From assembly GCA_002104895.1 (NCBI GenBank), contig MCFG01000448.1:1-51216 (forward strand): 51,216 nucleotides of DNA, given 5' to 3'. Positions within the stretch are counted from its first letter, which is position 1. Every line of letters begins with the position of its first letter. A program made the position numbers and the translations under genes. This DNA is from Anaeromyces robustus. Its lineage: Eukaryota; Neocallimastigomycota; Neocallimastigomycetes; Neocallimastigales; Neocallimastigaceae. This document shows, in pieces, positions 6,003-44,084 of this stretch. The notes below the pieces were generated by a model. It searched no databases. It saw only the letters and a program-made list of their open reading frames with translations, and had not been told where the DNA came from.

Positions 6003-6386
6003 TATAATAGTTTTATTTATTTAGTAATAATAATAGAATAAAGTCCTTATTTATATACAATTTTTAACAAAATATTATTTAAAAGATTATTAATAAAATA
6101 TTATTTTGATTCTATTTTATTTTGATTTTATTTAGTTATTTATGTATTTATTTATTTATTTATTTTGGGAGAAGTGCATTTCGGAATCGTGCATTATTGT
6201 ATGTGGCTTGATGATAAAATATTTTATAGCCACATTTATCAAAAATAAATAAATAAATAAATATATAAATACCTAAATAAAATCTAAATAATATTTTATT
6301 AATAATCTTTTAAATAATATTTTGTTAAAAATTATATTATAAAAAAGGACTTGTTCTGTTATCATTAAATAAATAAAACTATTATA
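6003..6386. repeat. Foldback (MITE-like) element
   Basis: The left arm 6003-6117 is the near-perfect reverse complement of 6286-6386. Shared phrases include AAAGATTATTAATAAAATATT and TATAATAGTTTTATTTATTTA. The centre holds the terminal motif at 6167-6247. It has no coding capacity. A partial direct copy of the right half follows at 6420-6565. Confidence 0.8.
6167..6247 (+). repeat. Terminal repeat arm matching 13,719-13,793 in inverse orientation
   Basis: It starts GGGAGAAGTGCATTTCG and continues through a hairpin (GTGGCTTGATGATAAAATAT against ATATTTTATAGCCAC). About 75 bases recur as reverse complement at 13,719-13,793 with only two mismatches noted. The pair encloses 7.6 kb containing MULE copies 2 and 3 and the CRESS Rep genes. 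Confidence 0.8.
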
Positions 6387-8131: not shown

Positions 8132-9558
8132 TTATAATTTATATTTATTTAAATCAAATAAACAATTAAACCATAATTCAACAATATCATTTTTATTATA
8201 GCCATTTTTAATTAGCTCGGATTCCAGTTTTTCGTAGTGTCTAATTAAACCATCAATTTCCTCCTTTCTTCCTAATATTCTTTTCTTTTTATTCCATATT
8301 CCTCCAATTCTTCTTTCGTAATCATTGTAAGATAAAGATTTTTCTTTTTGTAATGTATATATTAATTTATAGAAAGAAGGCTTTTTTGCAAATAAATTAT
8401 TTAAGTAATTATTAAAAGATTCAGACGCATTATTTGTAATATGTTCTATACTTTTGTAATAATTCCAGGATTTTATATCATAATTATTTAAGTATGTATT
8501 CTTAAAATATTCTAAGAATTTTAAAAATTGGAAACGATCACATGCTTCGCATGAACTTTTAATTTTATTATAAATATTAAATATGTATTCAGGGTTTATG
8601 AAAGGTAAGTTAGAAATAGCTTTATAATAAATATATAAAATATTATTATCTTCTACTTCTTTATAACATAATGCATTTTTGTTAATTTCCAATGATCTTT
8701 TATAATGCCAAATGCAATATTTAATATTTATTTCCGGAAAAGTTTTTTTTACTGCATTTGATATACCTTTTTCAAAATCACAGTGGAAATTTTTTGGTGT
8801 GATTTCAATATTATTATTATATTTAATAACATTTTTTTTATTTCCTCAAATAATATTTCATAAGTAGATTGCTTTTTATCTTTTAATACCGAAAAAGAAG
8901 TAGTATAAAAGCCATTTAATTCTGTAACATATGTTCTGGTAATAAACACCTGATAACTAATTGTAGGAGCAATATAAAATGTTCCATCTGCAAATATATC
9001 TTTATCGTATTTAGAGAATAGCTTTGCTTGGAATGGAGATTGAAAGATTACTAAATTAGAATTTTTGAAAATCATAAAATTTTCATTTCTTGTTGTTTTG
9101 TAATATTCTGATTCATCGGGAATTTCTTCGAAAGTTTTAATATCAGGAAATAATTGTTTATTTCTACTTCTTGATAATTGGGATTTAATTGAATTATATT
9201 CAGGACATATAAATCCCAATTCTTGAGAAACTTCATCATATATTCGTTTAGGCCTCATATCTAAGGGAATTAAGCTCTTTCTTATTTCATTTTTAATTTT
9301 ATGTTTTGTGATTGAAATAGATGTACTAAATTCTTTCTCAAGATGATTATGTGAACTTTCATATTTTAAAACTTCTTTATTATTATTTAAAATAATGAAA
9401 GATTTACATTTATTTGACGTTCTATATTCAGTACATCTATATACTTTTGTATTATCTTTTTTAAGAGTTGAAAAATTATATTTATATTTTTTATTTATTA
9501 TAATTTGTTCTTTTCCCCTATTTGTTTCACTTATCTCAATTTTTAGTTTATCGTCCAT
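8132..9558 (-). CDS. Mutator-like (MULE) transposase with FLYWCH-type zinc finger, near-intact copy 2
   Basis: DNA-transposon transposase that would bind terminal repeats and cut and paste the element. It is read from ATG at 9558. Residues 15-75 form a FLYWCH/WRKY-like zinc finger (Cys42, Cys51, His70, His72). Residues 155-230 hold the start of the MULE catalytic core, with FADGTFYIAP carrying the first catalytic Asp (191). Further on are CDFEKGISNAVKKTFP, CIWHYKRSLE, and a C-terminal region with HITNNASESFNNYLN, ending at 8132. The only defect seen is a one-base shift in an A8 run at about 8832-8839 (T8 on the plus strand), which splits it into reading stretches of 269 and 186 codons. That could be recent decay, slippage during expression or a base-calling error. 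Terminal motifs lie at 7472 and about 10,091-10,151. Confidence 0.88.
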
Positions 9559-9599
9559 TTTATATTAAAAATTTTTTCAAATCAAAAAATTTTTATAAA

Positions 9600-10090
9600 A
9601 ATATTTAATTTTTTAATGAATTTTTATTTTTATATTTTTTTTGTAAATAAATAATTAATAAAAAAATATTTATTTATTTGTTTCTTTTCTTTATTCTAAA
9701 GTTTATATTATTTTTTTATATTTATTATTTGTTATCGTCTTTTTAATAAAAATACATATATAATACTGTTATATTATTTATTATATATTATATTTATTAT
9801 TATTCATTTATAAAAAAAAATTTAATAAATATATTTAATTTTATAATGAATTTTTATTTTTTTTTTTATTTTTTTTTTATTTTTTTTTTATTTTTTTTTT
9901 TAGTAATAAAAAAAAAATTTATTTATTAGTTTTATTCTATTCATTTATTTATATATTTTTTTTTTATTTATTTATTTAATTTTTTTTAATTATATATTAT
10001 TTTATTTCATAACGTGGCTTTTATAATTTGTGTTAAAAAATTTTTCATTTTTTTATTTGTTTTTTATGCGCCTCATTGCAAAAATTTAAT
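9600..10090. other. Non-coding T-rich leader of MULE copy 2
   Basis: Long T runs with scattered A, no gene seen. Near 10,013 AACGTGGCTTTTATAA is the counterpart of the GTGGCTTATAAA found inside the other MULE left end (3490). ATGCGCCTCATTGCA near 10,057 is a degenerate copy of the terminal motif. Confidence 0.6.
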
Positions 10091-10161
10091 ATGCGCCCCA
10101 TATCATATTGCGAAATGCAACATTGCGAAATGCAACATTGCGAAATGCAACACATTCATTT
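10091..10161 (-). repeat. MULE terminal motif with a three-fold 15-bp tandem repeat
   Basis: ATGCGCCCC is followed by three exact 15-bp units ATTGCGAAATGCAAC (10,107-10,151) and then ACATTCATTT. The same organisation (two units ATTCCGAAATGCAC plus one base, then ACATTCATTT) recurs in the same orientation at 13,682-13,721. The CRESS segment is therefore flanked by direct copies of this block. Confidence 0.8.
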
Positions 10162-10200: not shown

Positions 10201-10362
10201 AATAGGGGTGGTGGTAATAGGGTCCTTTTAATTAATTAAAGAGGGTGCCGTAGCAATATATATAAATCCATATTGACCAATAGGATGCCGTAGCAATACG
10301 TTATATACGGTGCAGGGGAAAAACATTTCCGTAATACTAGTAAGGGAAATGTTTTTTGCACC
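10201..10362. other. CRESS-type replication origin: stem-loop with TAGTATTAC and iterated sites
   Basis: A stem is formed by GGTGCA (10,309-10,314) plus AAAAACATTTCC (10,319-10,330) pairing with GGAAATGTTTTTTGCACC (10,345-10,362). The loop contains GTAATACTA at 10,331-10,339, whose minus-strand reading is TAGTATTAC, the nonanucleotide nicked by Rep in many circular single-stranded DNA viruses. Upstream, TGCCGTAGCAATA occurs twice (10,246-10,258 and 10,286-10,298), 40 bases apart, as expected of Rep-binding iterons. GGGGTGGTGG at 10,205 is another GC-rich patch. The stem-loop and sequence are seen directly; the role is inferred from the family. The fossil origin lies upstream of Rep copy 1 and on the opposite strand to it. 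Confidence 0.85.
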
Positions 10363-10390
10363 GCATATATTTAAATTGATTATTATTATA

Positions 10391-10555
10391 TTCTAATATA
10401 TGTCCAATATAATAGTGCAAAAACTCAAGAGATACATTTGCACTACGTAAAATAAATTAACGTATTAGACTCTAAAATTATATAAACAATATATTTTTCT
10501 TAAATTTTTCTCTTTATAAGATTTATTATTTTTTAAAAATAAAATTAAACTACAG
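10391..10555 (+). repeat. Rep upstream direct repeat, first copy
   Basis: About 165 bases before the Rep start match the 167 bases before Rep copy 2 (12,157-12,323), period 1766-1768 bases. Shared items are CTAATATAT..CAATATAATAGTGC, the hairpin GTGCAAA..TTTGCAC (arms 10,415-10,421 and 10,437-10,443), AACGTATTAGA, and ATAAGATTTATTATTTTTTA just before the ATG. The first 22 bases correspond to the last codons of Rep copy 1, so a Rep tail once preceded this point. Confidence 0.85.
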
Positions 10556-12178
10556 ATGTCTCGTTATTTCGCTTTCACTTTAAACTCATACTCAGAAGAT
10601 GATGAGTTAGCTTTACAAACCTTTGCCAAAAACCCAAGAGTAATGCATCTACTTTATGGCAAAGAAGTTGCTCCTACCACCGGTACTAACCATCTTCAAG
10701 GATGCTTCTGTTTAGTGAAAAAAACCAAATTATTAACTATAAAAAATTTTATTGGACTTCGTCAACTCCATATCGAGCCTTGTAAAAAAGTTTACGAGGC
10801 TAACTTAAAATACTGCCAAAAATCCGGATTAGTCTGGCAATGGCCTTTGGAATTCATCAGAGAAGAAAAAAATGACAACAAACAAACATACGCCCAAGCT
10901 ATCGAACTCGCCAAACAAGGAAGGTTTAATGAAATTGCCGCCGATAAACTACTAAAGTATGACAACAAATTTAAGAAAATTTACGCTGAAACAGTAGCAA
11001 ATGTTGAAACACTATACTTCAATAACAAATTTGGAGACTTTTTCAAAGATTTTAATATATTTATTTACGGTCCTACTGGAACAGGCAAATCTTTCAGAAT
11101 TGATCAAATCATTTATATTTTAAACGAATTTTGGAAGATATACTGTAAAAATACCCATAAAGAATATCATCCATTTAGAAGTTACAAAAAAAATAGAAAC
11201 AAGTGGTGGGATGATTATATGGGTGAAGAAATATGCATTATAGAAGAATTGGAACCAAACTGGTGCCAAATGGCCGCTTCAAATTTGAAAACATGGTTTG
11301 ACCAATATTCATTCCCAGGTGAAATAAAAGGAAGTAGCATATCCAAAATCAGACCTTTATTTTGGATTCTCACAAGCAATTACTCCTTAGAACAACTTTT
11401 TACAAACAAAGATGGTAAACTTATCGAAGAAGACTACAAACCACTCAAAAGAAGACTATATATTGTTAAAACAAACAATATACATGATGACATCAACTGG
11501 CCTAAACTAGATAGAATAGCTTATTATTTTGATACAATAGAAAATGTTAAATTTGAAATAAACTCACAATACAAAAATATATTTGATAAATATATGAGAA
11601 GTTACAATATTTATAAACAAAATATTATCGAAAATGAAAACAATCCATTATTCAATACCTACAATGAAATTTCAAGTATTGAATGTGAACAAGGATCTGA
11701 ACCAAGAGTCCTATTAACGGATGAAGAATCAACAAATGAACCCATCTTATTAGATACAATCGATGATGAAGGTACATCTACAGAAAATGATTGGCCACTT
11801 TGCAAAATATGTTGCCAAAATGATATAGCCAACTCCTATGAAGAAAGATGTGAAGAATGCATCAATAAAGGTCTTGTTTACAGACCAGATATAGAACCTG
11901 CCTACAAAAACAATGAATACTTCGATCAATTATTAGAAAGTGCATACAAAGTTCAGGATGCACACAAACAACAAAAAAAATTTAATTCACAAATTTACCA
12001 TGTAAATATAGTAACCGATTTTATATGGGATAAACCTGAAGAAAATAATGAATTAAACATGTATAAAATTATGATCAAAGATTTCAATTTAAAAATAAAA
12101 AATTCCAGAAGAAAAATCTCTGCAATTCAAAAAGAATTGTCTAAATTGAGATTACACTCTAATATATTGTCAATATAA
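10556..12178 (+). CDS. rep: CRESS-DNA virus-type replication initiator (Rep), fossil copy 1, looks whole
   Basis: Rolling-circle replication initiator with an HUH endonuclease and a superfamily 3 helicase, 540 residues. The endonuclease motifs are I FTLNSY (7-12), II HLQG (46-49) and III YCQK with the catalytic Tyr86. The helicase has Walker A GPTGTGKS (172-179), WWDDY (217-221), Walker B CIIEEL (227-232), motif C ILTSN (271-275) and KRRL (298-301). Circovirus-like Reps are usually about 300 residues, so the last 200 residues are extra. They hold an acidic/Asn-rich region and CxxC(416-419)-x12-CxxC(432-435), a possible zinc-binding cluster. The stem-loop at 10,309-10,362 and the conserved leader sit directly upstream. 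No capsid gene is next to it. The reading looks whole. As part of a genome-embedded virus-like copy it could be inert or kept by the host; expression cannot be judged here. Confidence 0.92.
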   Translation: MSRYFAFTLNSYSEDDELALQTFAKNPRVMHLLYGKEVAPTTGTNHLQGCFCLVKKTKLLTIKNFIGLRQLHIEPCKKVYEANLKYCQKSGLVWQWPLEFIREEKNDNKQTYAQAIELAKQGRFNEIAADKLLKYDNKFKKIYAETVANVETLYFNNKFGDFFKDFNIFIYGPTGTGKSFRIDQIIYILNEFWKIYCKNTHKEYHPFRSYKKNRNKWWDDYMGEEICIIEELEPNWCQMAASNLKTWFDQYSFPGEIKGSSISKIRPLFWILTSNYSLEQLFTNKDGKLIEEDYKPLKRRLYIVKTNNIHDDINWPKLDRIAYYFDTIENVKFEINSQYKNIFDKYMRSYNIYKQNIIENENNPLFNTYNEISSIECEQGSEPRVLLTDEESTNEPILLDTIDDEGTSTENDWPLCKICCQNDIANSYEERCEECINKGLVYRPDIEPAYKNNEYFDQLLESAYKVQDAHKQQKKFNSQIYHVNIVTDFIWDKPEENNELNMYKIMIKDFNLKIKNSRRKISAIQKELSKLRLHSNILSI

Positions 12179-12323
12179 TAGTGCAAAAACTTAACTGATA
12201 CATTTGCACTACGTAATTAAATTAACGTATTAAATTAACGTATTAGAAAATATTATATATAAACTAAAATTTTTTCCTATTTTCATCTTTATAAGATTTA
12301 TTATTTTTTAAAAATATATTACA
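12157..12323 (+). repeat. Rep upstream direct repeat, second copy
   Basis: Second copy of the leader repeat described at 10,391, overlapping the last 22 bases of Rep copy 1. Hairpin arms are at 12,181-12,187 and 12,203-12,209, and AAATTAACGTATT is doubled. The TAGTATTAC stem-loop is not repeated here. Confidence 0.85.
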
Positions 12324-13392
12324 ATGTCTCGTTACTTTGCCTTCACTTTAAATAATTATACTGAAACTAATGAACAAACACTTCAAGACTTTGCCAAGAA
12401 TAGCAGAGTAATGCATTTACTCTACGGCAAAGAAACAGCTCCTACTACTGGTATTCCACATCTTCAAGGCTGTTTCTGCTTACACAAAAAAACTAAATTA
12501 GTAACAATTAAAAATTTTATCGGTATTAGAGAGCTTCATATAGAACCATGCAAAAAGGTTTATGAAGCTAATCTTAAATATTGTAAAAAATCAGGACAAG
12601 TTTGGCAATGGCCTTTAGAGTTTATCAAGGAAGAAACTCCTGATAATAAACAAACTTACGCTAAAGCAATTGAACTGGCCAAACAAGGAAGATTCGACGA
12701 AATAGCCGCTGATAAACTTATAAAATACGATTATAAGTTCAAAAAAATTTACGCTGAAAACCTCGCAAACTCAGTAGAAACACTATATTTCCAAAACAAA
12801 TACGGGGACTTCTTCAAGGACTTCAATATTTTAATCTACGGTCCAACAGGAACCGGTAAATCTTTTAGAATTGAACAAATTGTTTATATTCTAAATGAAT
12901 TTTGGAAAATCTACTGCAATAACACCAACAAAGAATATCACCCACTAAGAAATTACAAAAAAAATAGAAACAAGTGGTGGGATGATTATATGGGCGAAGA
13001 AATCTGTATAATCGAGGAATTGGAACCTACTTGGTGTCAAATGGCCGCTTCAAATTTAAAAACCTGGTTTGATCAATACAGTTTTCCAGGTGAAATAAAA
13101 GGTAGTAGTATATCCAAAATTAGACCTCCATTTTGGATACTAACAAGTAACTACTCCTTAGAACAACTATTCACAAATAAAGAAGGAAAATTATTAGAAG
13201 ACTACAAACCACTAAAAAGAAGACTATACGTGGTTAAAACTAATAATATTTATGACGATATATAATGGCCCAAGTTAGAAAGAATCGCTTATTATTTTGA
13301 CACTATAGAAAGTGTCAAATTCGAAATTAACCAAAAACACAAAATTATATTCAACAAATATATACAATCCTATAACATATATAATCTTTAAA
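12324..13392 (+). pseudogene. rep: CRESS-DNA virus-type Rep, fossil copy 2, broken
   Basis: Same family as the gene at 10,556 and about 87% identical to it in protein by eye over the first 310 residues. It keeps the endonuclease motifs FTLNNY, HLQG and YCKK, and the helicase motifs GPTGTGKS, CIIEEL and ILTSN. Many nucleotide differences between the copies are at third codon positions, for example in the first 11 codons. The two therefore diverged while the protein was under constraint, either as virus lineages or after a selected duplication. This copy is broken and lacks most of the C-terminal extension. After it (13,400-13,680) only T-rich non-coding DNA is seen. Confidence 0.9.
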
Positions 13393-13681
13393 TATAAATG
13401 AAAAATATTATAAAATATTAAATAAAATAAAAGACTTTGAAAAAATATGATTTTTGTTTGTTTGTAAAAGTTAATGAATAACTTGAATCTTTCTTTTTTA
13501 AATTTTTTTTTTTGTATTCTTTTGTATTTTTTTTTTCAATTCTTTGATTTTATTATAATTTTTTTAATTATTTTTATTTCATTTTATTTCATTTTTTAAT
13601 TTGTAATTATTAATTATAATTTTTAATTATTATTTATTTATTTATTCATTTATTTAATATATAAAATTTCATGCGCCACAG

Positions 13682-13711
13682 ATTCCGAAATGCACAATTC
13701 CGAAATGCACC
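13682..13711 (-). repeat. Two-fold 15-bp repeat, right flank of the CRESS segment
   Basis: Two units of ATTCCGAAATGCAC plus one base, preceded by ATGCGCCACA and followed by ACATTCATTT. It is a direct counterpart of the three-fold block at 10,107-10,161. Confidence 0.75.
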
Positions 13712-13718
13712 ACATTCA

Positions 13719-13793
13719 TTTATTTTTGATAAATGTGGCTATAAAATATTTTATCATCAAGCCACATACAATAATGTACGATTCTGAAATGCA
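13719..13793 (-). repeat. Terminal repeat arm, reverse complement of 6173-6247
   Basis: A 75-base near-perfect reverse complement of the arm at 6167-6247, with two mismatches noted (near 13,778 and 13,785). It includes the internal hairpin GTGGCTATAAAATATTTTAT..AGCCAC. With 6167 it encloses the nested MULE and CRESS material. Confidence 0.8.
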
Positions 13794-13799
13794 CGATTC

Positions 13800-15071
13800 C
13801 GTAATTAATACGTGTAGCAACATATTAGTATATTTAATAATAATGAAATTATTAAATATTAAATTCATATTTTATTAATAATTTTAATATTTTATATTTT
13901 ATATTTTATATTTTTACTAAATATTTTATTTTAAAAATTATTCAAATTATTATATTTTAATATATTATTAATATAGTCGAATTATATATTAAAATTGATT
14001 ATATTTATATTGATAATTTATTTTAAATTATTAAAATTATATAGTTTTATATATTATATTATTTATATATTATAATTAATATTATTAAAATATTTATATA
14101 TTAATTATTATTTATATATATAATATTATTATATTTATACTATATATTAAATTATATTTTATATATACTATTAATATTATATTAAATATAAAAATTTATT
14201 AATAATAACAATATTAAATAATTGTAAAAAGGACTTTTAAAAATTATTAAAATAAATAAATAAAATAATAAATAAGATATTAAAATACAAAAAGATACCA
14301 TATTTCGACTACAACATAAAATTTACTCATATCAATATGGTGATCATGTGATAATTTGGGGTCAAAATTAATTTGATCCAGGGATCAAAAAAAAATTTTT
14401 TTGTGTAACATAAAAAAATATAAAAGGAAACTGGTCTAACTTGAGTCTGAAATAATAACATTAAATATATTTCAGACTCATGTCAAACTTCAATTTTAAT
14501 AAATTATTAATTAAAGTTAAAAAGTAAAAAAAAAAAAAATTATTTTTTACATTATACTTTATTTTTTAATAAAAATCTTTTATTAATATTAATAAGAAAA
14601 ATAATAATAAAGATGAATAAAAACACACTTTTCAAAATTAAAGAAAGTTTTACTTATTTATATTTTTTCGAAAATTACAAAAAATTATAAATTTTTAAAA
14701 TATTAAAAAATACGTTTATGAGACTCTGTGTTTAACACAAATATTAAAACCCGCTTGGAATGCCTTTTTCAGTATACCAGGCTGGAAAGATGTTTAATAA
14801 TGATAGTGTTGGATATAGAGAATAAATTAAAATGTAAATTTAAAAATTATAACAAATAAATTAATTTATTTATTATTTCAGTACTTACCTATTGTGTTAA
14901 CAAATCAACAAGTATATAATTTATTTATATATTTGTTATAATAATAAATAAATCATATTATTAAAATCTAATTTTAAATTTTTAATTTTATATATGTAAC
15001 ATTAAATTTATAATAATACATAATAATATTAATAATAATGGATATTTGAAATAGCACTTAATAAGTTAAAA
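13800..15071. other. Non-coding AT-rich interval with two perfect palindromes
   Basis: No gene recognised. TTTGATCCAGGGATCAAA (14,372-14,389) is an 8-bp stem with a two-base loop. GAGTCTGAAATA (14,444-14,455) pairs exactly with TATTTCAGACTC (14,468-14,479). Near 14,740 a short reading KPAWNAFFSIPGWKD stands out from the AT background but is too short to assign. Confidence 0.5.
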
Positions 15072-17040: not shown

Positions 17041-20000
17041 CTCCTATTATAGTACTAGTAATAGTCAATATAATAAGAATATTATTATTGATAAAAATAA
17101 TAATATTATTAAAAATAATAATATTGAAAATAATAATAAAATTAATAAAAATAATAATTTAGAAAATAAAAATAATAATCTTAAAAATAATTGTAAAAAT
17201 AATAATAATAGTATAGATAAATATGAAGAACAATTTTTTGAAGATTATAATGATGCAATTAATGCTGAATCAAGCAATGTTTCATTAAAAAAATCTTCAT
17301 ATAAAAAATTAAAATATTTTTCTTATTATAATAATTTTTCTAATAATAATAATAATAAATATCATGAAAATAAAAATGATTATAAAAATAATTTATATAA
17401 TAAATATAATTATTATAATAAAAATAAATATAATTATTATAATAAAAATAAAAGTAATTACTATATTAAAAATAATAATACCAATTCTTATAAAATTAAA
17501 AATAATAATACACAAGTTAAAAATAATATAAATAAAAGAAATGATACATTAATTCCTTGGACTTTAGATTCAGGTGCCACTTTTCATATGACTGGCAATC
17601 CTGATATTTTAATTGATAAAATAAAATATAGCCAAGATATTTACTTTGCAGATGGAAACAATGTTCGTTCCATTTATAAAGGTACATACAAGGGATATAT
17701 TGGAGATAATAAAATATGTTTAAAAAATGTTTTGTATATCCCTGAATTTAAAAGAAATTTAATATCAATTGATTGTCTTTGTCTACAAAATTTTAAAACT
17801 ATTTTTCAACAAGAAAATAATAAAAACAAAGTATCAATATATAATAAAAATAAAAATAAAATTTATAGTACTTTTTCAAATGACTCAAATACTTATATTA
17901 TTTGGACGTCAAAAAACAAATTTAATTTTAATAATATTAGTAATAATTTAAAAGATAATAATATAAATAGTTTAACAAATACAACAAATAATGACGACGA
18001 AAATTTAGAATTATGGCACCGTCGTCTTGGGCATTTTAATATTAATAATCTTAAAAATACATTAAAGAAAATAAAAATTAATAATAAATGTAAAATTTGT
18101 TCATGCTCGAAATTAAAAAATTTTCCATTTTACAGTGCAGAAAATAAATCAAAGGAACCCTTCGAATTAATACACATGGATACAGTTACAGTTAATGAAA
18201 ATTCTTTATATGGAAATAAATATTTTTTAACAATTTTAGATGATTTTACGCGTTATGGTTGGGTATTCTTCTTAAAATCTAAAACTGAAGTTTTTGATAT
18301 TTTTCTTAATTGGTATAACAAAATTACAAATATTTTTAACAAAAATATTAAATATATAAAAACCGATAACGGTAAAGAATTTTTTAATAATAATTTTAAT
18401 AACTTCTGTAACTTACATGGGATTATTCACCAACATACAGTCCCATATAACCCATCACAAAATGGACGCGTTGAACGTCTTCATGGAACTTTGCTTTCTA
18501 CCGCCAGAGCCATGCTACATGATGCCAAGCTTAGCCATGTTTTTTGGGAAGATGCTGTATCTACAGCAAATTATATTCATAATAGAATTCCTCATAAAGG
18601 TATTAATTTTAAAATTCCTTATGAATTATTATATAACGAAAAAGTTGATTATAATAAATTTAAAGTGTTTGGTTGCCAAGTATTTTTCTTTGTTCCCAAA
18701 CAATTTCGTTCAAAATTATCTAATTCTACTCTTCCAGGTATATTTATTGGTTATGATTCCAATCCTTCTGCTTTTAAAATTTATGATACTACCAATAATA
18801 AAATTATTATTTCGCGTGCCTTAGAATTTTTTGAAGATACTCCAGGTAATTTTTCATCTCCTTCCTCCATTCCAGAAACTATTAATTTTATTCCGTATTA
18901 TGAAATCGGGGGAGATGATGATGATATCGTTTCTATTTCTTCTATAAATACAAATAATAACAATTTAAATAATATAAATAATGACAATTTAAATAATATA
19001 AATAATAACAATTTAAATAATATAAATAATAACAATTTAAATAATACAAATAACAACAATTCAAATAATACAAATAATAACTCAAAAAACAATTTAAATA
19101 ATATAGACACAAATAATAATATAAATAGTACAGATAATAAACTAAACTATGTTAACAATAATTTAAATAATATTAATAATATTCCAAATAATAATAATAA
19201 TTTATATAATAATAATTATTCAAATAATAATAATTTATATAACAATAATTATCTAAATAATAATAATTTATATAACAATGTCAATTACCCAAATAATAAT
19301 TTATATAATTATACAAATAATAATTTATATGATTTATATAACAAAAATTATAATAATAATAATAATATTAATTATTTATTAAACAACAAAAATTTATTAT
19401 ATAATTATCTTTCATATCCTCCTAATAATAATAATTATTTTATTCCAAATTATGCTTATTATCCATATTATCCAAATTATTTTAATCCAACAATTTATGA
19501 AAATAATTTACAAAATAAAAATAATTCATTTGATGAATATTTTGATTACAATAAATACTATAATGTAAATTCAAAAAATCAACTTGATAAAAATAAAAGT
19601 GATAATATTAATAACTTAGAAAATAATTCCATTAACAATTTAAATAATTTAAATCAAAACATTCAACAACAAAATTTAAAGAAAAACAATACTGAAAATA
19701 TATTAAATAAAGAAAATAATATTGAATTAAATAAAAATAAAAACAACAACGAAAATTTAAATAATAATATTGAATCAAATAAAAATAAAAACAATAATGA
19801 AAATTCAAATAATAATATTAATAGAATAAATATGGAAAACAATAGTAAAGTTTTAAATAATAAAATTTTAAATAACAATGAAAACAATAATAATTTAAAC
19901 AAAAATTTAAATAATAATAATTTAAATAATAATTATTTAACAAATAATAACAATAATTTAAATAATAAAAGTATTAATTTAAATAATAATTATGAATCAA

Positions 20001-21736
20001 ATAAAAATAATACAAATAAAATAAACAACTCAAATAATAATTATTTAAATAACAACAATGATAAACTAAATGATAATATCACTGGAAATGATAACAAAGA
20101 AAAAATATATAATGTAAAAAAGAGAAAGAATATAGACGAAATAACAAATGACATTAAAAAATCAAGATATGTAAGTAATTTAGTGGTAGTTTTTGATAGT
20201 GAAATATCACCTCCTAACAATTTTAAAGAAATATTTAAGAGAAAAGATAAAAACAAATGGTTGGAAGCAATAGATGTGGAATTAAATAACTTAAAAGAAA
20301 AAGAAGTTTACGAAATCATAGACAACATTCCAGAAGGTAAAAATATAATTTCTACTAGGTGGGTTTTCACTTACAAGAAAAATGACAAGGGGGAGATTAT
20401 AAAGTACAAAGCAAGACTGGTTGCAAGAGGATTTTCACAAATTTATCTTATAGATTATATTGAAACTTTTTCACCTACTTTACAACAAGATTCATTAAGA
20501 ATTATAATTTGTATTTCATTATATTATAATTTTGATATTTATCAACTAGATGTAAAAGCAGCATATTTGAATGCTGAACTTGAAGATGACATATACTTAG
20601 AAATTCCTGAAGGTGTAGAGAATAATAAGAATAAATTTTGGAAATTAAAAAAGGCATTGTATGGTTTAAAACAAGCTGGAAGAATGTGGAATAATAAATT
20701 AGATAGTATATTAACAAAATTGGAATTTATAAGATTAAAAAATGAACCATGTATATATATAAAATTAAATAATGAAAACAAAATAATTTGCATTATTGCA
20801 GTTTATGTGGATGATATTTTAATTTGTGGTAATATAAATAATATTAATAAAATTAAATTACAATTAAAAAATGAATTAGATTTAACTGATATTGGTTTAG
20901 TAGATTTCATAATTGGAATAAAATTTATAAAATGTGAAAATGGTTATATTTTGCATCAATTATTATATTTAGAAAAAATCTTAGAAAAATTTAATATTAA
21001 AGAAAATAATAAATCATCAAATATGATTTATATAGAAGACGAAAATAAAAGAAATGAAAAATTTGATTCAAAATTATATGTGCAAGCCGTGGGCAGCTTA
21101 TTGTACTTAGCCATGGGTACCAGGCCAGATATTTTATTTGCTGTTAGTAAAGCTTCCAGAAAGAATAAAAATCCTACCTATGAAGACTGGTATAATGTAT
21201 TAAAAATTTTTAAATATTTAAATGCAAATAAATATTATGGAATAAAATATAATAAAAATATAAATATTAAAGCATTTGTTGATGCTGATTTTGCAGGTGA
21301 CAAAGAAACATATAGGTCCACAAGTGGATTTATAATTACAATGGGTGGAACACCAATAACTTGGTATTCAAAACTACAACACTGTGTTTCAATATCAACA
21401 GCAGAAAGTGAATATTATAGCCTAAGTGAATGCGCGTTAAAATGTGTTTGGCTAATTAATTTATTAAATGAATTAAAAATTAACATTAAAAATATTACAA
21501 TAAATATAGATAATAAAGCAGCAATTTATATAAGCAAAAATGAAACAATAAATATAAAATCAAGACACATAAATATCAGATATCATAAAATTCGCGAACT
21601 TATTAAAAACGATATAATAAATTTAAAATATATTAAATCACAATATAATTTGGCGGATACTTTAACCAAATATCAAAACGGAAATTTATTATTTAATTTT
21701 AGAAAACAAATTTTATATGAATTAAAGAAATATTAA
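16952..21736 (+). CDS. pol: Copia pol polyprotein (protease, integrase, reverse transcriptase, RNase H)
   Basis: The frame is open from 16,952 to the stop at 21,736, about 1594 codons, in +1 relation to gag. An Asn/Lys/Tyr-rich lead-in is followed by the protease motif TLDSGATFHM near 17,560. The integrase has a zinc-binding region (LWHRRLGH ... CKICSC) near 18,010-18,110 and the core (HMDT, KTDNGKEF, PYNPSQNGRVER) to about 18,860. An asparagine-rich linker of about 390 residues fills 18,940-20,130. The reverse transcriptase has WVFTYKK, QLDVKAAYLNAELEDD, ALYGLKQAGR and YVDDI (near 20,810). RNase H has VDADFAGD, STAESEYYSLSE, IDNKAAIYIS and LADTLTK. Expression presumably uses +1 frameshifting as in yeast Ty1, since pol has no start of its own in the overlap. 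Confidence 0.95.
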   Translation, partial: DTQYILVDLKTIRKIIKILNKITGGKKINNSYYSTSNSQYNKNIIIDKNNNIIKNNNIENNNKINKNNNLENKNNNLKNNCKNNNNSIDKYEEQFFEDYNDAINAESSNVSLKKSSYKKLKYFSYYNNFSNNNNNKYHENKNDYKNNLYNKYNYYNKNKYNYYNKNKSNYYIKNNNTNSYKIKNNNTQVKNNINKRNDTLIPWTLDSGATFHMTGNPDILIDKIKYSQDIYFADGNNVRSIYKGTYKGYIGDNKICLKNVLYIPEFKRNLISIDCLCLQNFKTIFQQENNKNKVSIYNKNKNKIYSTFSNDSNTYIIWTSKNKFNFNNISNNLKDNNINSLTNTTNNDDENLELWHRRLGHFNINNLKNTLKKIKINNKCKICSCSKLKNFPFYSAENKSKEPFELIHMDTVTVNENSLYGNKYFLTILDDFTRYGWVFFLKSKTEVFDIFLNWYNKITNIFNKNIKYIKTDNGKEFFNNNFNNFCNLHGIIHQHTVPYNPSQNGRVERLHGTLLSTARAMLHDAKLSHVFWEDAVSTANYIHNRIPHKGINFKIPYELLYNEKVDYNKFKVFGCQVFFFVPKQFRSKLSNSTLPGIFIGYDSNPSAFKIYDTTNNKIIISRALEFFEDTPGNFSSPSSIPETINFIPYYEIGGDDDDIVSISSINTNNNNLNNINNDNLNNINNNNLNNINNNNLNNTNNNNSNNTNNNSKNNLNNIDTNNNINSTDNKLNYVNNNLNNINNIPNNNNNLYNNNYSNNNNLYNNNYLNNNNLYNNVNYPNNNLYNYTNNNLYDLYNKNYNNNNNINYLLNNKNLLYNYLSYPPNNNNYFIPNYAYYPYYPNYFNPTIYENNLQNKNNSFDEYFDYNKYYNVNSKNQLDKNKSDNINNLENNSINNLNNLNQNIQQQNLKKNNTENILNKENNIELNKNKNNNENLNNNIESNKNKNNNENSNNNINRINMENNSKVLNNKILNNNENNNNLNKNLNNNNLNNNYLTNNNNNLNNKSINLNNNYESNKNNTNKINNSNNNYLNNNNDKLNDNITGNDNKEKIYNVKKRKNIDEITNDIKKSRYVSNLVVVFDSEISPPNNFKEIFKRKDKNKWLEAIDVELNNLKEKEVYEIIDNIPEGKNIISTRWVFTYKKNDKGEIIKYKARLVARGFSQIYLIDYIETFSPTLQQDSLRIIICISLYYNFDIYQLDVKAAYLNAELEDDIYLEIPEGVENNKNKFWKLKKALYGLKQAGRMWNNKLDSILTKLEFIRLKNEPCIYIKLNNENKIICIIAVYVDDILICGNINNINKIKLQLKNELDLTDIGLVDFIIGIKFIKCENGYILHQLLYLEKILEKFNIKENNKSSNMIYIEDENKRNEKFDSKLYVQAVGSLLYLAMGTRPDILFAVSKASRKNKNPTYEDWYNVLKIFKYLNANKYYGIKYNKNINIKAFVDADFAGDKETYRSTSGFIITMGGTPITWYSKLQHCVSISTAESEYYSLSECALKCVWLINLLNELKINIKNITINIDNKAAIYISKNETINIKSRHINIRYHKIRELIKNDIINLKYIKSQYNLADTLTKYQNGNLLFNFRKQILYELKKY

Positions 21737-21749
21737 ACTTTAGGGGGAG

Positions 21750-22040
21750 TGTTAGAAATAAAGTTTAATATATATTAATATATAATAAATATTATAATAA
21801 ATATTATGTTTATTCTTATATAGTTATAAATATTTAAGTATCATAAAAATATTGTTAATGTATAAATTTATTTTATTAAAATGTACAGAGTGGCGTATTA
21901 TTACATCACCTGATATATATGATTAATATATGTAAAATTATTATAGATAGTTAATATAAAATGTTTACTAATAATGTAATTATTAATATGTGGGTTCTTA
22001 ATAAATAAAATATAAAATATTAATTAATCAAATTCTAAGA
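21750..22040 (+). repeat. 3' LTR of the copia element
   Basis: 291 bases matching the 5' LTR, preceded directly by the purine tract TTTAGGGGGAG and followed by the target duplication GTAAC. Confidence 0.95.
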
Positions 22041-22045
22041 GTAAC

Positions 22046-22378
22046 TAAAATATAAATATATAATATTTATTTGTAATATATATATTTATTTAAAATATAT
22101 AAATTCATATATTTACAATCAAAATAAACAAAAAAAATGAATTATTTAATAAAGTATTTTCCATTTCTATTTATTTCAATTAATTTATTTTATTTTTAAT
22201 TAACCAATAAATTATACATGTAGAAATTTTATTTATAATATTTTGATATTATTTTAAAAAAAATATCATCGTGTGATCTTAAATCAACTCCTATAATATT
22301 AGATGAGTGGTTGATTTATTTCACATTACATTCAATTAAATTGATTCCATATATTAACTAAAATTAACATATGGGAAT
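22046..22378. other. Non-coding flank of the copia insertion
   Basis: AT-rich, no gene seen. A small less AT-rich island near 22,268-22,340 contains GTGTGATCTTAAATCAAC and GTGGTTGATTTATTTCAC, which are partly complementary. Confidence 0.4.
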
Positions 22379-24365: not shown

Positions 24366-24725
24366 TTAAGGTTCAACTTTATTTTTGTTGAGATAGTCTT
24401 CAGTAATATAATCTCTTATTTTATCTTCTCTAATAAAAACATAAACAGGGTAGTTAATTTCAATATCAAAATTATTTGTTCTGAAAGAATTACTAGAAGG
24501 AAGATCAACATAACAATGAACATGGTCTTGATGAATTTCTTCATCGGCCTGTTCCTTAGCAATCACACATTTAGTTCCATTGGGAATTTTTTCAAGAAAC
24601 TCGGTGATAACTCCAACACTAAGACCTGTAGCATAGGTGATAATAAAGGTAGAAAATTTAATAAAAGTCATTTTTATAATAAATATGGTTTGTTGAAATA
24701 AAACTAATGCTATTATTTCAGCCAT
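24366..24725 (-). pseudogene. HUH Rep endonuclease domain fossil (gemini/genomovirus-like CRESS type)
   Basis: 119-residue reading on the minus strand with the three rolling-circle motifs in order and spacing: I FIITYAT (27-33), II HVHCYV (68-73), III DYITED (105-110, candidate Tyr106). Between them are CVIAKEQ and FRTNNFDIEINYP, resembling the FD.....HPNI segment of geminivirus-type Reps. The helicase half is absent, so it is only a fragment. Its motif I differs from the FTLNNY type at 10,556, so this derives from another virus lineage. A capsid-like remnant lies divergently to the right, which fits an ambisense CRESS genome. A weak stem ATAGGT/ACCTAT (24,724-24,744) lies at the start; no clear nonanucleotide was found. 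Confidence 0.6.
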
Positions 24726-24959
24726 AGGTCACGGTCACACCTATTTATATTTTTTATTTACAATTTTTTACAATATGTATTTATTTTAAGTTTAATTTAA
24801 TTATGATGTTATCAATCGGAGTTTTTTAATTAATAATTTGATTAGTCATATGATACTGTGACGGAATTACCATAAATAGACTGAGCTTTTTTATATTTTT
24901 TTAAAATTATTGTTGATTTTATTTAGTAAAACGAATAAAAGAATTTATTATAGAAATAA

Positions 24960-25345
24960 TTTTAGTGCACATAAAAGGTCAGGCGGAAATTTGAGAGCAA
25001 GTAAATAAGCAAATAACACTGTAACATTTACAGTTGCAGTTAATCACCCATTTGCGATTAAAAATACACCAGTATATTATAATTCCACTACTCAAATATT
25101 CAATAATGTTGCTACTAGTAGATATAATACTTATAATTGTTCGGTTTATGCACTTTATATGGGATATATTAAGTAAAGCTGATAATTTTAAAGCATATCA
25201 AAAAATGTATGATCAATATAAGTCGGATTATATTCAAGTTATCTGACTAAATAAACATAATGTTGTTGAAAAAGCATATGTAAATTGTAATGATGTTAAA
25301 GGTTGGCATGATACAGTTAAAACAAATGAAGTATATTATAATAAA
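24960..25345 (+). pseudogene. Capsid-like fossil of a CRESS-type virus
   Basis: Broken plus-strand readings contain TVTFTVAVNHPFAIKNTPVY, then SRYNTYNCSVYALYMGYIK, then FKAYQKMYDQYKSDYIQV. The last resembles the segment F--Y--LYDQYKI--V-V common to jelly-roll capsid proteins of circular ssDNA viruses. It starts about 235 bases from the Rep fragment on the opposite strand. The assignment rests on pattern resemblance and on position. It is broken by a few defects and seems about half the length expected for such a capsid gene. Confidence 0.42.
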
Positions 25346-39807: not shown

Positions 39808-42800
39808 TTAGTTGTCATAACTAATAGAAGCAGAGGTTCTATTACTATTAAGGTATTCCATAAAAATGCGTTGGTTTCGAGGGTTATCTTCGACTTCAGA
39901 AGATGGAACCCAATTATAAGCAGTACGATATTTATAACGAACTCTATATTCGTACTGTTTCTTCTTGTAATTAGTTCTGAAATCAGAAATTTCAACTATA
40001 TCCTTGATAGATTCAGGATCTTTGTTTCTTTTGGAGAAACGAGTGGGCACAGGAGTGAAAGGTTCTAATTCTGACACATGGAAAACATTGTAGTGTTTAG
40101 GAAAAGGTGACTTTTTTAAATCAATTTCATAATTGTTGTTGTGGAGGACATTGGTTACCTTATATGGACCATATTTACAGGGAGCGAGTTTAGAGCTGGA
40201 TTCGAGGTTCAAAGAAGGAGGAGCTTGTATCCAGACAAGATCATCAATCTTATACGTAGGAGCGGTCATTCTCTTCTTATCGGATGCGCGCTTGTATAAT
40301 TCTTGAGAACGGAGAAGGACATCCTGTATATGATTGAATCCTTCGGCAACCTTTTGAATGGTTTTGTGATTTATATTAGTTGTTGGAAGTAGGGTGAATT
40401 CGTCCATATACGGGTGGAATCCATAATTTACAAAGAAGGGAGTTTCGTTGGTAGAAGGGTGAATTGAGTTGTTGTAGGCAAACTCAGCTAACGGTAGAAA
40501 GTCAGCCCAGTCATTGTGATAAAAAGATCTTGAGAAACAGCGGAGGTATTGTTCGATGTAAGAATTACATCGTTCTACTTGTCCAACAGTTTCGTGATGA
40601 TCGGTAGTTGCTATTTTTGATTGAACACCTAAAATAAGAAGGAACTCTTGCCATAAATCACTAGTAAATTGAGATCCTCTATCGGTTATTATGTCATAAG
40701 GAAGCCCATGCAGTCTATAAATTGAATTAATAAAAGCTTTAGCTGTTTGTGCTGCATTGGGTATATCCTTAAATGGAACAAGGTGTATCATCTTAGAAAA
40801 GCGATCAACAACTACCATTATTACAGTGTAATTTTTGAAGGAGGAAGCCCACAAAGAAAGTCGATTTCGATTGATTTCCAGGGTCTTTCAGGAACTTCTA
40901 AGGGTTGAAGTAATCCAAATTTACGATGTCTTGACTTTTTATTTCTCATGCATGTTTCGCATGATTTAACAAAGTCTTTGACATCATTATCCATTTTAGG
41001 CCACCAAAAGTTCCTAGAGATAAGTTCCAAGGTTCTTTTGACACCTAAATGACCAGCAGCGGGAGTCTCATGATATCTCATGAGTATTTCTAAACGAAGT
41101 TCCTTAGGAATATAAATCAAATTATTATAAAATATAAGATTGTCTTCTATTTTAAATTTATTCATTTTTCTAAATGGTTTGTAAAAATAACCTTGATTTG
41201 CATTATTGGGAGCGAAATAAAGACGAAGGTCTTCGGCTACAGGATCATTTTTAAGATGCTTTTTAATATTCGAGAGAAAATCATTTGTTATACTAACAAC
41301 AGGGGTAGAACTAATATTCTTCTTGTCCAAATGAATTCAGGTTCTTTTTTCATCCTCTTTGATGTAGTCAGGTCTTCTTGATAAAGAATCTGGCTTTCCA
41401 TTTTTATTACCCTGGCGATAAATAAGTTCGAAATCATACTCTTGGAAAAATAAATGCCAACGATGTTGTCGTTGGTTACCAATTTTACCACCAAGAGTGT
41501 ATATTAGGTTCTTGTGATCGGTGAATACTTTCACCTTGAACTTAGCACCTAATAAGAGATGACGCCAGGTAGAGAAAGAATCCTTAATAGCCAAAAGTTC
41601 TTTATCAGTAATTGGATAGTTCAATTCTGCGTTATTAAGACTTCTCGAATGGTACGCAACAGGATGAAGTTTGTTATCATCATCATATTGCGAAAGTACA
41701 GCGCCAATAGCAAAATTGCTAGCGTCGCATTCGACAATAAATTGCTTAGTATTGTCGGGATGGAGAAGGACGGGAGAAGTCGTCAAACGTTTCTTTAAGA
41801 TTGAGAATGCAGAGTCGCATTCTGGAGACCAGATAAATTTCTTCCCCTTTTTTGTTAAAGAGTGTAAAGGTTTAGCGATTGAGGAGAAGTCCTTTACAAA
41901 TCTTCTATAGTAATTGCAAAGACCAACGAATCTTTGCACATCCTTTACACATTTAGGGACAGGCCATTCTTCAATTGTCTTGATTTTTTCGGGTCGGTAG
42001 ATATACCTGATCCTGAGATTACGTGACCTAAGAATTCGACTTTGTCTTTATCGAATTCACATTTGATAAGTTTAGCGAACAAGTTGTTTTCAATTAACTT
42101 CTTAAGAACATCACGAACGGTTTTATGATGTTCTTCTAGATTATCAGAGTAGATGAGTATATCATCAAGATACAAAATAACTGATTTTTCTAAAAGGGTC
42201 TAAGAACGGAGTTAATAAACGATTGGAAGACAGCTGGGGCATTTTTTAATCCAAATGGCATTACTAAGTATTCGTAATGACCATATTTAGTACGGAAGGC
42301 AGTTTTATATTCGTCACCTTCCTTAATTCTAATTAAATTATAAGCGGAGCGTAAATCTAATTTAGTAAAGTATTTTGCTCCCTTCACGCGTTCGATTATA
42401 TCCCTGATAAGCGGAATTGGATAAGAGTTCCTAACAGTAACCGCATTTAATTTTTTATAATCGACGCAAAGTCTAAGAGAACCATCACGTTTCTTCTGGA
42501 ATAAGACAGGATAACCTGCAGGAGAGTTGGATTCTCTGATAAAGCCCTTTTCTGACATGTCTTTGATATATTCCTTGAGGGTTTCTTCTTCTTCTAGGGA
42601 TAATTGGTAGATAGGACCATAATGAAGAGTAGCACCATCTTTTAGAATAATTTCACAATCGGTAAGACGGTGTGGAGGGAGTTTGTCTGCTTCTTTTTTG
42701 CTAAAGACAACTGCAAGATCTCTATATGGTTCTGGGATATCTTCAATGTTAGGTTCCTCAGATCCAGAGACATCTTTTTGTGAAAGGAAAGAGTAAATTA

Positions 42801-44084
42801 AAAAATTATAATTATAATGATTCGACTCATTATTTTTATTATAAGAAAAAGTTTTTATTAAATCATTTTTAAAATGATTTAGACTAAGAGTAGAATAAAC
42901 ATATTTATTTCGATAATTATAGTGGATTTTATATTTCTCCATAAATTGATTACCAAGAAGTAAATCGACAGGGAGATGGTCTGAGACCAAAAATTTTTGT
43001 TTAAAACGGATAAATCTAAATTTCTTGTTGATAAATAATTTTATTTGAAATTTTAGAGATACAAAGCTATTTATTGAATCTGTATCTCCACTGATTCCTT
43101 TTATTAAGATTTTATTTTGACATTTGTTGATATTTAAATTAAGTTTTTTGACAAGATTTGATGAAATAAAGTTACAAAGTGATCCAGTATCTAGAATGGA
43201 TCTAACTTGGTATTTAATAATTTTGTTATTCTCATTTAAAATAGGAATATGTGATTTAAATGAGAAGAATGATTCAGGGAGGCTATTGTTTAGGGTAGTT
43301 AAATTATGTTGAACTTCCTTTGAGAAGTTCAAAGGAGAGGACTTCTTTTGAAGTCCATCAACTAGTTTTTTGAACTGATTTTTTGAACATCAGTAACGCG
43401 GTTGTCGTTACTGTTGTTTTTAGACTTATTATAAAAATTGTTGTTTTTATTAAAATTGTTGCTTTTATTCTTCTTATCAGTATTCTGCGGACGGGAATTT
43501 GAATTTTTCTTCTTGTCAGTTCTATTTTAGGAGAACTGACTGATCTTTGCATTCATTTCTTGAGAAGACTCTAACAAGATACACTTTGTTATGATTTCTT
43601 CGAGCTTCTCAGGAAACTTTTCCATTTTGTTTATTTCATCCTTGTATTTAGGATGAAGACCTTTATAAAAGAACAAAGCTAAAGGTTCTTCAGGCCAAGC
43701 TAAATCAGCAGTTAGCTTACGGAATTCATCAATGTACTCATTGATTTTTCCGTAATTATGCTTTATATTGGCTAATTTAATTTTCTTTAATTTCCTGTTA
43801 ACAACATCAGGAAAGGCTCTTTTTAATTCTTCTAAAAGAGTCCATAAAGAGGATGGAATAGTACCAATAGGATATTTTGTTTGATACCAACTTCTTGCAG
43901 CTCCACGCAACCTAGACTGAACGAAGTTGATTTTTGCTTCTTCGGGCCATAACTTACATGGGTAGGTTTTAAAAGTATCTCCGCAAAGTTGACAGAAGAG
44001 TTCAATTTCGGAGATGTCGCCGTAAAAAAGACCAGGTTCTGGTACTGCCGGCCATTTTGGTATTCGCAAAACTTTTGCTCTCAT
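39808..44084 (-). mobile_element. Ty3/gypsy (chromovirus-like) gag-pol fossil
   Basis: Parts from right to left are as follows. Gag is at about 44.08-43.5 kb (GLFYGDISEIELFCQLCGDT). Protease is near 43.2 kb ([13 protein letters not shown]). Reverse transcriptase is at about 42.6-41.95 kb ([29 protein letters not shown]). RNase H is at about 41.8-41.45 kb (ECDASNFAIGAVLSQ, TDKELLAIK). Integrase is at about 41.1-39.8 kb (H-H-C-C zinc finger, VVVDRF, TDRGSQF, C-terminal GPYKV). A chromodomain-like end (IVEISDFR ... YRTAYNWVPSSEV) completes it. It is broken by about four to six defects but the protein sequence is well preserved, so moderately young. It lacks the front of gag and its 5' LTR. At about 44,085 it joins another gypsy copy head to head. 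No 3' LTR adjoins it. Confidence 0.92.

Follow-up and report, generated by a model that had tools for sequence, protein, structure and literature searches.

A probable endogenous viral element derived from circovirus-like CRESS-DNA viruses in the anaerobic gut fungus Anaeromyces robustus

The window analyzed here is a 51,216-nucleotide contig (C388) of the Anaeromyces robustus genome (70.17 Mb in 769 contigs), transposon-rich and with a G+C content of 19.6%. It harbors a virus-derived segment, with putative boundaries placed at positions 10160 and 13376 by alignments of repeat copies on both sides, that is very probably an endogenous viral element made up of incomplete, chromosomally integrated copies of two related, capsid-encoding, circovirus-like DNA viruses of the circular Rep-encoding single-stranded (CRESS) type that infected A. 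robustus or its ancestors. This interpretation rests on the motifs and predicted fold of the replication-associated proteins (Reps), on a conserved replication origin, and on capsid genes present at sister loci. Judging from the sequence, the window copy retains one origin, one Rep with a lost tail, and, of a second Rep that comes from another viral strain, the first ~350 residues. Because no capsid gene adjoins these Reps, the copy would be unable to make particles alone, and no evidence of its present function was seen.

The Rep genes and their replication origin

Rep1 (10556 to 12178, plus strand) encodes 540 residues comprising an HUH endonuclease domain (approximately residues 1-105), a superfamily 3 (SF3) helicase domain (approximately residues 150-310), and a helical, probably coiled-coil, tail that is cut short near residue 530. 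Rep2 (12324 to 13376, plus strand) is open for 313 codons (12324-13265), after which stops occur, and shares 87% amino acid identity with Rep1 over 312 codons. Both proteins match the Pfam families Viral_Rep (PF02407) and RNA_helicase (PF00910) above cut-off, and a Pfam search found no Gemini_AL1-type Rep domain in either at an E-value of 0.01. The HUH motifs of Rep1 are T8/N11, H46-L-Q48, and Y86-C-x-K89, and its SF3 motifs are Walker A (G172-S179), Walker B (I229-E231), motif C (T273-N275), and an arginine finger (R299/R300). In a 21-row Rep alignment, H46, Q48, Y86, C87, and K89 are invariant, as are the Walker A residues G175, G177, and K178. Walker B reads IIEE, ending in EE rather than the more familiar DD, and an insert of approximately 20 residues lies past Walker A, relative to rows P0038-P0049. 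The Pfam matches and conserved motif residues thus bear out the initial annotation, made from the sequence alone, in its report of two related Reps with HUH and SF3 motifs.

Structural comparisons point in the same direction. The best match of Rep1 in a search of PDB sequences was a circovirus-type Rep (7lar), with an E-value of 1.6e-11 for Rep1 alone and 1.4e-26 with the profile A3. The AlphaFold model of Rep1 has a mean predicted local distance difference test score (pLDDT) of 81 and a predicted TM-score (pTM) of 0.52, and its HUH and helicase blocks score over 90 for the most part. A Foldseek search with this model placed the Vientovirus FB Rep (PDB 9pqq) at the top (E 1.8e-13, 21% identity), with porcine circovirus 2 (PCV2) Rep domains also among the top matches, and the HUH domain of the model matches those of PCV2 and duck circovirus.

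Copy 1 had initially been regarded as whole and copy 2 as broken; only the latter view stands. Rep1 aligns with the Reps of two other contigs, C130 and C625, up to approximately residue 530-538, and near position 12150 it passes into ACACTCTAATATATTG.., where the leader found between the origin and Rep1 begins for a second time. The C130 Rep (P0012) and the open piece on C625 continue together for approximately 93 residues beyond this break. Judged against these relatives, Rep1 is not whole: its conserved C-terminal tail (~95 residues) has been lost, and the leader of unit 2 stands in its place. The first leader occupies 10385 to 10541 on the plus strand and is repeated before Rep2 (repeat pairs D12 and D13, 88% and 82% identity; 78% in a DNA search), where the second copy (12151 to 12316, plus strand) is fused into the 3' part of Rep1 with no origin ahead of it. 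The junction near 12150 lies inside a short stretch, TAAATTGA, where the Rep1 tail resembles the leader, a position consistent with recombination between two strains replicating together. The likeness of Rep2 to Rep1 extends to 13382 by tblastn, interrupted by the stops after 13265 and by a repeat that starts at 13377. In both units, the leader also contains an inverted repeat, AGTGCAAA..TTTGCACT (10414-10421/10437-10444 and 12180-12187/12203-12210), which is possibly regulatory.

Upstream of Rep1 lies the origin, a stem-loop on the minus strand (10302 to 10369; loop 10331-10344) displaying the nonanucleotide TAGTATTAC at 10331 to 10339, the presumed Rep nick site by analogy with known CRESS biology. 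When the minus strand of 10300-10375 was folded as single-stranded DNA, the nonanucleotide fell in the loop of a hairpin with a z-score of -8.92, and none of 200 shuffled sequences folded as well; folding of the plus strand of 10290-10380 gave a z-score of -5.98. The hairpin has the top score among the 39 NANTATTAC sites of the window. Two copies of a 13-bp candidate iteron, TGCCGTAGCAATA, lie on the plus strand at 10246 to 10258 and 10286 to 10298 and are exactly identical, as had been noticed in the initial annotation along with the stem-loop. Their 10-bp core, TGCCGTAGCA, occurs nine times in the 70 Mb of the genome versus once for a reversed control; of these nine sites, the three origins treated below account for four, the Rep gene of contig C459 contains one, and four are elsewhere.

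The origin has been kept at three loci of different Rep lineages, namely the window, C130, and C222, with different stems around the same loop. At the DNA level, 10222-10542 aligns with C130:30112-30420 (76%), and 10215-10255 aligns with C222:20286-20326 (98%). All three origins share TTTAATTAATTAAAGAG..TGCCGTAGCA and the string CCGTAATACTA at the loop. The core of iteron copy 1 is conserved at both other loci; copy 2 has one base changed at C130, with equal spacing, and was not seen at C222. The stems differ, yet each is self-complementary (z -8.92 for the window, -4.79 and -4.69 for the other two), as would be expected from selection on a working origin, the comparison being of three sequences and so a small one. 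When hairpins were ranked across every NANTATTAC site of the window and of 12 further genome stretches, those of the window, C130, and C222 were the three best, scoring 27, 35, and 33 versus 22 for the next. The origin sits 194-218 bp ahead of the Rep start at each locus, and the accompanying Reps are 63.5% (C130, 241 residues) and 44.7% (C222, 295 residues) identical to Rep1. The origin-Rep arrangement therefore recurs within this genome, with a slightly changed second iteron at C130 and a single iteron at C222, and the claim that a CRESS-type Rep and its own origin reside together in a eukaryotic chromosome is supported. Elsewhere in the genome there is no near copy of the origin-leader DNA, the longest other match being the 76% alignment at C130. 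Unit 2 contains no NANTATTAC site despite having a leader, and thus lacks an origin of its own.

In a living virus of this kind, Rep would be expected to bind the iterons, to nick the loop at TAGTATT/AC through Tyr86, and to carry out rolling-circle replication with unwinding by its SF3 helicase. It would then re-join the single-stranded circles, which the capsid would pack. The helical tail, whose end is missing from the window Rep1, may serve in oligomerization. Integration into the chromosome may have come about through Rep-made nicks or through ordinary repair.

Capsid genes, sister loci, and the wider Rep clade

Three loci in the genome combine Rep with a capsid gene. The clearest arrangement is that of C222, where the order is capsid (minus strand), origin, and Rep (plus strand), and where the capsid protein (P0050) has 330 residues and an arginine-rich start. 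On C130, the capsid gene lies downstream of Rep. A genome search with the capsid gave nine matches, and capsid matches are found at eight places: C222, C114, C233, C130 (at 32.8 and 74.2 kb), C146, C243, and the window. The window match (24931 to 25240, plus strand) is a decayed capsid remnant of a related virus and a separate insertion; it consists of two collinear pieces (tblastn E 2.7e-12 and 4.7e-10; 0.0017 and 0.007 in the first search) located approximately 12 kb from the Reps. The absence of a neighboring capsid gene, reported initially, thus holds for the DNA adjoining the Reps and does not extend to the window as a whole.

A structural model of the capsid, built from a 37-row alignment (37 of the 120 relatives listed), consists mostly of strands, with a pLDDT of 83 and a pTM of 0.77. 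Foldseek returned CRESS capsid proteins first (E 1.2e-18, 25% identity); in the PDB, parvovirus capsids came first, and bat and porcine circovirus capsids were among the first 50. On this predicted structure, the sister-locus capsids are of the jelly-roll type. There are 385 database relatives of the capsid, and among the best 120 of these, 17 carry PF02443 (Circo_capsid) in a precomputed domain listing. The Circo_capsid score is 23.1 bits for P0050, against a cut-off of 36.2, and 15.7 bits for the C114 capsid. The locus of the latter (C114:112553-115673; L065) holds an open capsid reading frame of 339 residues followed on the same strand by open reading frames (ORFs) of 320 and 174 residues, and no strong origin hairpin occurs within the 7 kb examined there. 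Beside the window's capsid remnant, a minus-strand ORF of 119 residues (24366-24725) contains an HUH-like string by eye (DHVHCYVDL). It had no match in Pfam or the PDB, no second copy in the genome, and none among 282 collected proteins (best E 0.6), and HUH identity is not claimed for it.

Matches to Rep amount to approximately ten units, located on C388 (two), C130 (30.4-32.0 and 77.6-78.5 kb), C625 (two), C222, C459, C249, and C632. The two C130 loci are particularly informative. At 30.4-36.3 kb, genes for Rep, capsid, a beta-repeat protein, and a 314-residue protein follow one another in one direction; at 74.2-78.5 kb, likewise in one direction, the order is capsid, beta-repeat, 314-residue protein, and the C-terminal half of Rep. 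The two arrangements are one circular gene order cut at different points, which is what a circle would give. The two additional genes follow the capsid in the same order at both loci (C130:34209-36337 and C130:75146-77405; L009, L071, L067). The beta-repeat protein, whose repeats resemble NKSLTVTSNGTQxVIPSxGYxGLSxVxxTTNV, could be a surface or attachment protein. At C459 and C249, respectively, the 314-residue gene and the beta-repeat gene face the Rep 3' end. Both also occur together at C130:81.8-83.8 kb, and the 314-residue gene occurs at C364, with no Rep or capsid match reported at either site. No relative of either protein was found among phage records. The 314-residue genes are mutually close (dS 0.26-0.29, with dN/dS ratios of 0.29 and 0.49), much closer than the adjoining Reps, so either modules have been exchanged or these genes have spread in the host; this weighs against a simple four-gene genome.

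The two extra genes and the circularly permuted copies nevertheless hint at a four-gene genome of approximately 6-8 kb. Among the 33 Rep rows of the clade described below that are not from A. robustus, the longest contig is 6-8.1 kb in nine and never longer; among the 119 capsid rows listed, two exceed 7 kb and one exceeds 8.1 kb (11,414 bp). This ceiling fits free genomes of approximately 6-8 kb and proves nothing, most contigs being shorter. A database Rep that is 64% identical to the window Rep (P0004) and a capsid protein (P0076) have the same listed length, 5125 bp, for their longest contig and probably lie on one contig. With slightly less than even confidence, it is proposed that anaerobic gut fungi are infected by living CRESS-DNA viruses that form a new group at family level. 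Their circular genomes, ~6-8 kb in size, would each hold four genes, coding for a long Rep that ends in a helical tail, for a jelly-roll capsid, for the beta-repeat protein, and for the conserved 314-residue protein, in two layouts, with all genes in one direction or with Rep facing the rest; the viruses would exchange modules by recombination, and would have entered the A. robustus genome many times.

The place of these Reps among their relatives was assessed with a tree of 83 Rep rows, each cut to 420 residues. The rows comprise 49 from a first Rep search, four open pieces of this genome, and 30 of 113 new rows (six picked by name or source, 24 at random) from a later search that returned the best 120 of 5731 matches, mostly unnamed Reps. 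One branch separates 41 rows from the other 42, with support of 100/96 and presence in 100% of 200 bootstrap trees. The 41 rows are the 37 best-ranked rows of the first search plus the four genome pieces, so they could in part be expected to cluster, and it is the support of the branch that is informative. The A. robustus genome contributed eight of the 41 rows, and Logan, ENA, or JGI assemblies, taken as metagenomic, contributed the other 33. Within the clade, Reps range from 310 to 922 residues and are often 540-660. Rep1 and Rep2 of the window group as a pair whose sisters are P0003 and P0004; P0039 and P0044 are the next rows out, on very long branches and in unsure positions. A Rep phylogeny had been proposed initially as a check: the window Reps do group with CRESS Reps by sequence and fold, and because the tree holds no named circoviruses, nor nanoviruses, protist viruses, or fungal plasmids, the clade is assigned to no named family.

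Divergence, flanking DNA, and alternative explanations

Selection estimates (Nei-Gojobori) are rough at ~30% G+C, though the contrast between values is large. Over the 312 codons aligned between Rep1 and Rep2, protein identity is 86.9%, the proportion of synonymous differences (pS) is 0.758, which is saturated, and that of nonsynonymous differences (pN) is 0.079. Such saturation together with high protein identity indicates that the two genes diverged as working viral genes, mostly before integration, and rules out an origin of the pair by duplication within the genome. Synonymous sites are likewise saturated for the C459-C249 and WIN1-C222 Rep pairs. The dN/dS ratio is 0.114 for WIN1-C130, 0.127 for WIN2-C130, and 0.128 for C625b-C459; for C222 and C625a, it is 0.037 (dS 0.26, dN 0.01). 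Given that Rep divergence largely preceded integration, integration most likely happened repeatedly. The C625 Rep (C625:9918-11792; L011) is a mosaic, its first 298 residues being 97.7% identical to C222 and the last 248 bp of its window-shared part 86.7% identical to the window, so that the end of the tail is close to the window/C130 type, with 50% protein identity over the whole 195-residue tail alignment with the window; this indicates recombination between viral lineages.

The segment is set in transposon DNA. To its left, and outside the virus, is a DNA transposon on the minus strand (8132 to 10159) with a FLYWCH-domain ORF at 8749-9558, which appears to be of the Mutator-like element (MULE) kind; neighboring ORFs were assigned by eye. 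At this left edge, four of seven repeat copies inspected show the terminal string and the match stops after ..ACACATTCAT, at ~10159; in a separate comparison, many copies stopped earlier, at 10137, and some extended to 10176. To the right, a high-copy repeat (13377 to 13718, plus strand) terminates the viral segment. Forty of 80 candidate copies of this repeat were scored, one being the window itself, and all 39 others match from 13377-13378, which places the end of the viral part at ~13376. Three 15-bp tandem repeats (ATTGCGAAATGCAAC) occupy 10107-10152 at the end of the flanking transposon and are present at other genomic copies too. Farther out, 6118-6254 (minus) and 13714-13851 (plus) form an inverted pair (81% over 139 bp) that encloses both the left transposon and the viral segment, and these may be the termini of a single outer element or of two that are related. 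At the C222 viral locus, a 592-bp MULE-like piece flanks the viral DNA in inverted orientation at 99.8% identity (C222:16140-16731 and 21526-22117; L012), and MULE-like DNA also touches the viral segment of the window. The window also contains a copia-type polyprotein (17588-21736; RVT_2) and a gypsy-type fragment (42190-43332; RVT_1).

Four other explanations were weighed against the endogenous virus. Rep-only CRESS plasmids exist, and the lack of a capsid gene beside the window Reps is what an integrated plasmid-like replicon of fungi that never had a capsid would look like. This had been offered initially together with a partial virus copy; the same kind of origin and Rep is joined to capsid genes at C222 and C130, and P0004 and P0076, if indeed on one contig, would tell the same story. 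The partial virus copy is accordingly the option that survives, and the plasmid is very improbable. Equally little credence is given to the view that Rep is the cargo or engine of a transposon spread by MULE-like elements, in the manner of the geminivirus-like Tuber transposon reported in the excerpted text of PMC3198968. High-copy transposon ends do lie on both sides of the segment, the C222 locus has MULE-like DNA too, and the inverted 13714-13851/6118-6254 match could represent outer terminal repeats. Against this, the origin-leader DNA has no near genome copy (76% at best, on C130), whereas the flanking repeats have some 39-40 other scored copies at 93-100%, and the immediate flanks belong to different repeat subfamilies in direct orientation.

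A little less improbable, if still unlikely, is the adoption of Rep1 as a working host gene, such as an antiviral or DNA-processing protein. Rep1 has stayed open for 540 codons at 19.6% G+C while Rep2 is broken, and some transferred CRESS genes elsewhere are conserved and expressed, according to the excerpt of PMC3198968. Nonetheless, the conserved C-terminal tail of Rep1 has given way to the unit 2 leader, and divergence as viruses accounts for the purifying selection observed between copies. Finally, contaminant or unassembled free viral DNA in the assembly is scarcely credible: nothing speaks for it beyond the viral nature of the genes, and the 51-kb contig is full of transposon copies common to dozens of other contigs, including flanking repeats with dozens of copies at 93-100% identity, which upholds residence in the genome.

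Several observations do weigh against an endogenous circovirus-like element, or at least against parts of it. The case that A. robustus was infected is built on integration rather than on observed infection. The open 540 codons of Rep1 leave room for recent arrival or host selection. The capsids resemble those of known circoviruses weakly in sequence: Circo_capsid matches six of eight proteins compared with it, and none of the eight reaches the cut-off (best 34.9 of 36.2 bits). The capsid model reaches low TM-scores with PDB chains (a query TM of 0.38 or less among the best 50 rows listed), a capsid profile matched nothing among PDB sequences at an E-value of 1, and the dN/dS of 0.59 for the C114/C222 capsid pair points to constraint less strongly than do the values for the Reps. 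Scans of IMG/VR with Rep1, the capsid, and the A3 profile found no relative, the A2 scan gave none usable, and the A1 scan gave one match (L056) covering residues 2-91 only.

Relation to known viruses and elements

Endogenous CRESS viruses are a known kind of element. As far as searched, four points are new here: the group to which the host belongs, the clade formed by the Reps, the long Rep with its tail, and the circle of possibly four genes. For many of the CRESS-DNA viruses recovered in gut and fecal surveys, no host is known; copies integrated together with origin and capsid link one deep clade of them, which has 385 capsid relatives in public assemblies, with a fungus of the anaerobic gut group. 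That sister copies still carry capsid genes suggests that a little-known group of viruses has its hosts among such fungi. Because A. robustus is in culture, the host claim is directly testable. If the viruses are still active, they could, speculatively, matter for rumen ecology.

Earlier reports provide a setting for this result. Liu et al. (2011; PMC3198968), in the excerpted text, described CRESS Rep copies with geminivirus-like domains in fungi, as well as the Rep-bearing transposon in Tuber. Kinsella et al. (2020; PMC7493932) are excerpted as counting five CRESS families with confirmed hosts, fungi included, and a 2022 study of clinical fungi (PMC9603141) states, in the part available, that Genomoviridae is the only CRESS family recognized to infect fungi. 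The CRESS finds of the latter study were themselves traced, by the same excerpt, to reagent contamination, a problem that the integrated copies of A. robustus avoid. According to the available portion of a rumen phage review (PMC8692978), viruses of anaerobic fungi are very little known, and the term "neocallimast" does not occur in the accessible text of a study on CRESS viruses of yak feces (PMC12819777). No earlier report of CRESS viruses in anaerobic fungi was found in the open literature (subscription journals and preprints excluded), and one eukaryote-wide survey of CRESS Reps may already list these Reps.

The fungal Reps of PMC3198968, as excerpted, are alike in being CRESS Reps in fungal chromosomes; they carry a geminivirus-like domain of geminivirus or genomovirus affinity, whereas the A. 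robustus Reps are of the circovirus/nanovirus type and have kept capsid genes and an origin. The likeness to Circoviridae comprises a Viral_Rep plus SF3 Rep, an HLQ-type motif II, a TAGTATTAC-type stem-loop with adjacent repeats, an arginine-rich capsid N-terminus, and the divergent capsid/origin/Rep arrangement at C222. Members of Circoviridae have a Rep of ~300 residues and a genome of ~2 kb. The elements described here differ in size, with a Rep1 of 540 residues, relatives of up to 922, and contigs of relatives of up to 8.0 kb; in the helical tail and the ~20-residue insert after Walker A of Reps that are often 540-660 residues long; in capsids of 330-360 residues; in a Rep clade that stands apart from the 42 other tree rows; and in genomes that are probably larger. 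Vientovirus FB, of the family Redondoviridae, supplied the best overall fold match of Rep1 (PDB 9pqq), with a sequence identity of 21% and a comparison confined to the Rep fold. Finally, hosts of gut CRESS viruses have reportedly been assigned from integrated copies in Entamoeba and Giardia, much as is done here; unlike in those cases, the host in the present case is a fungus.

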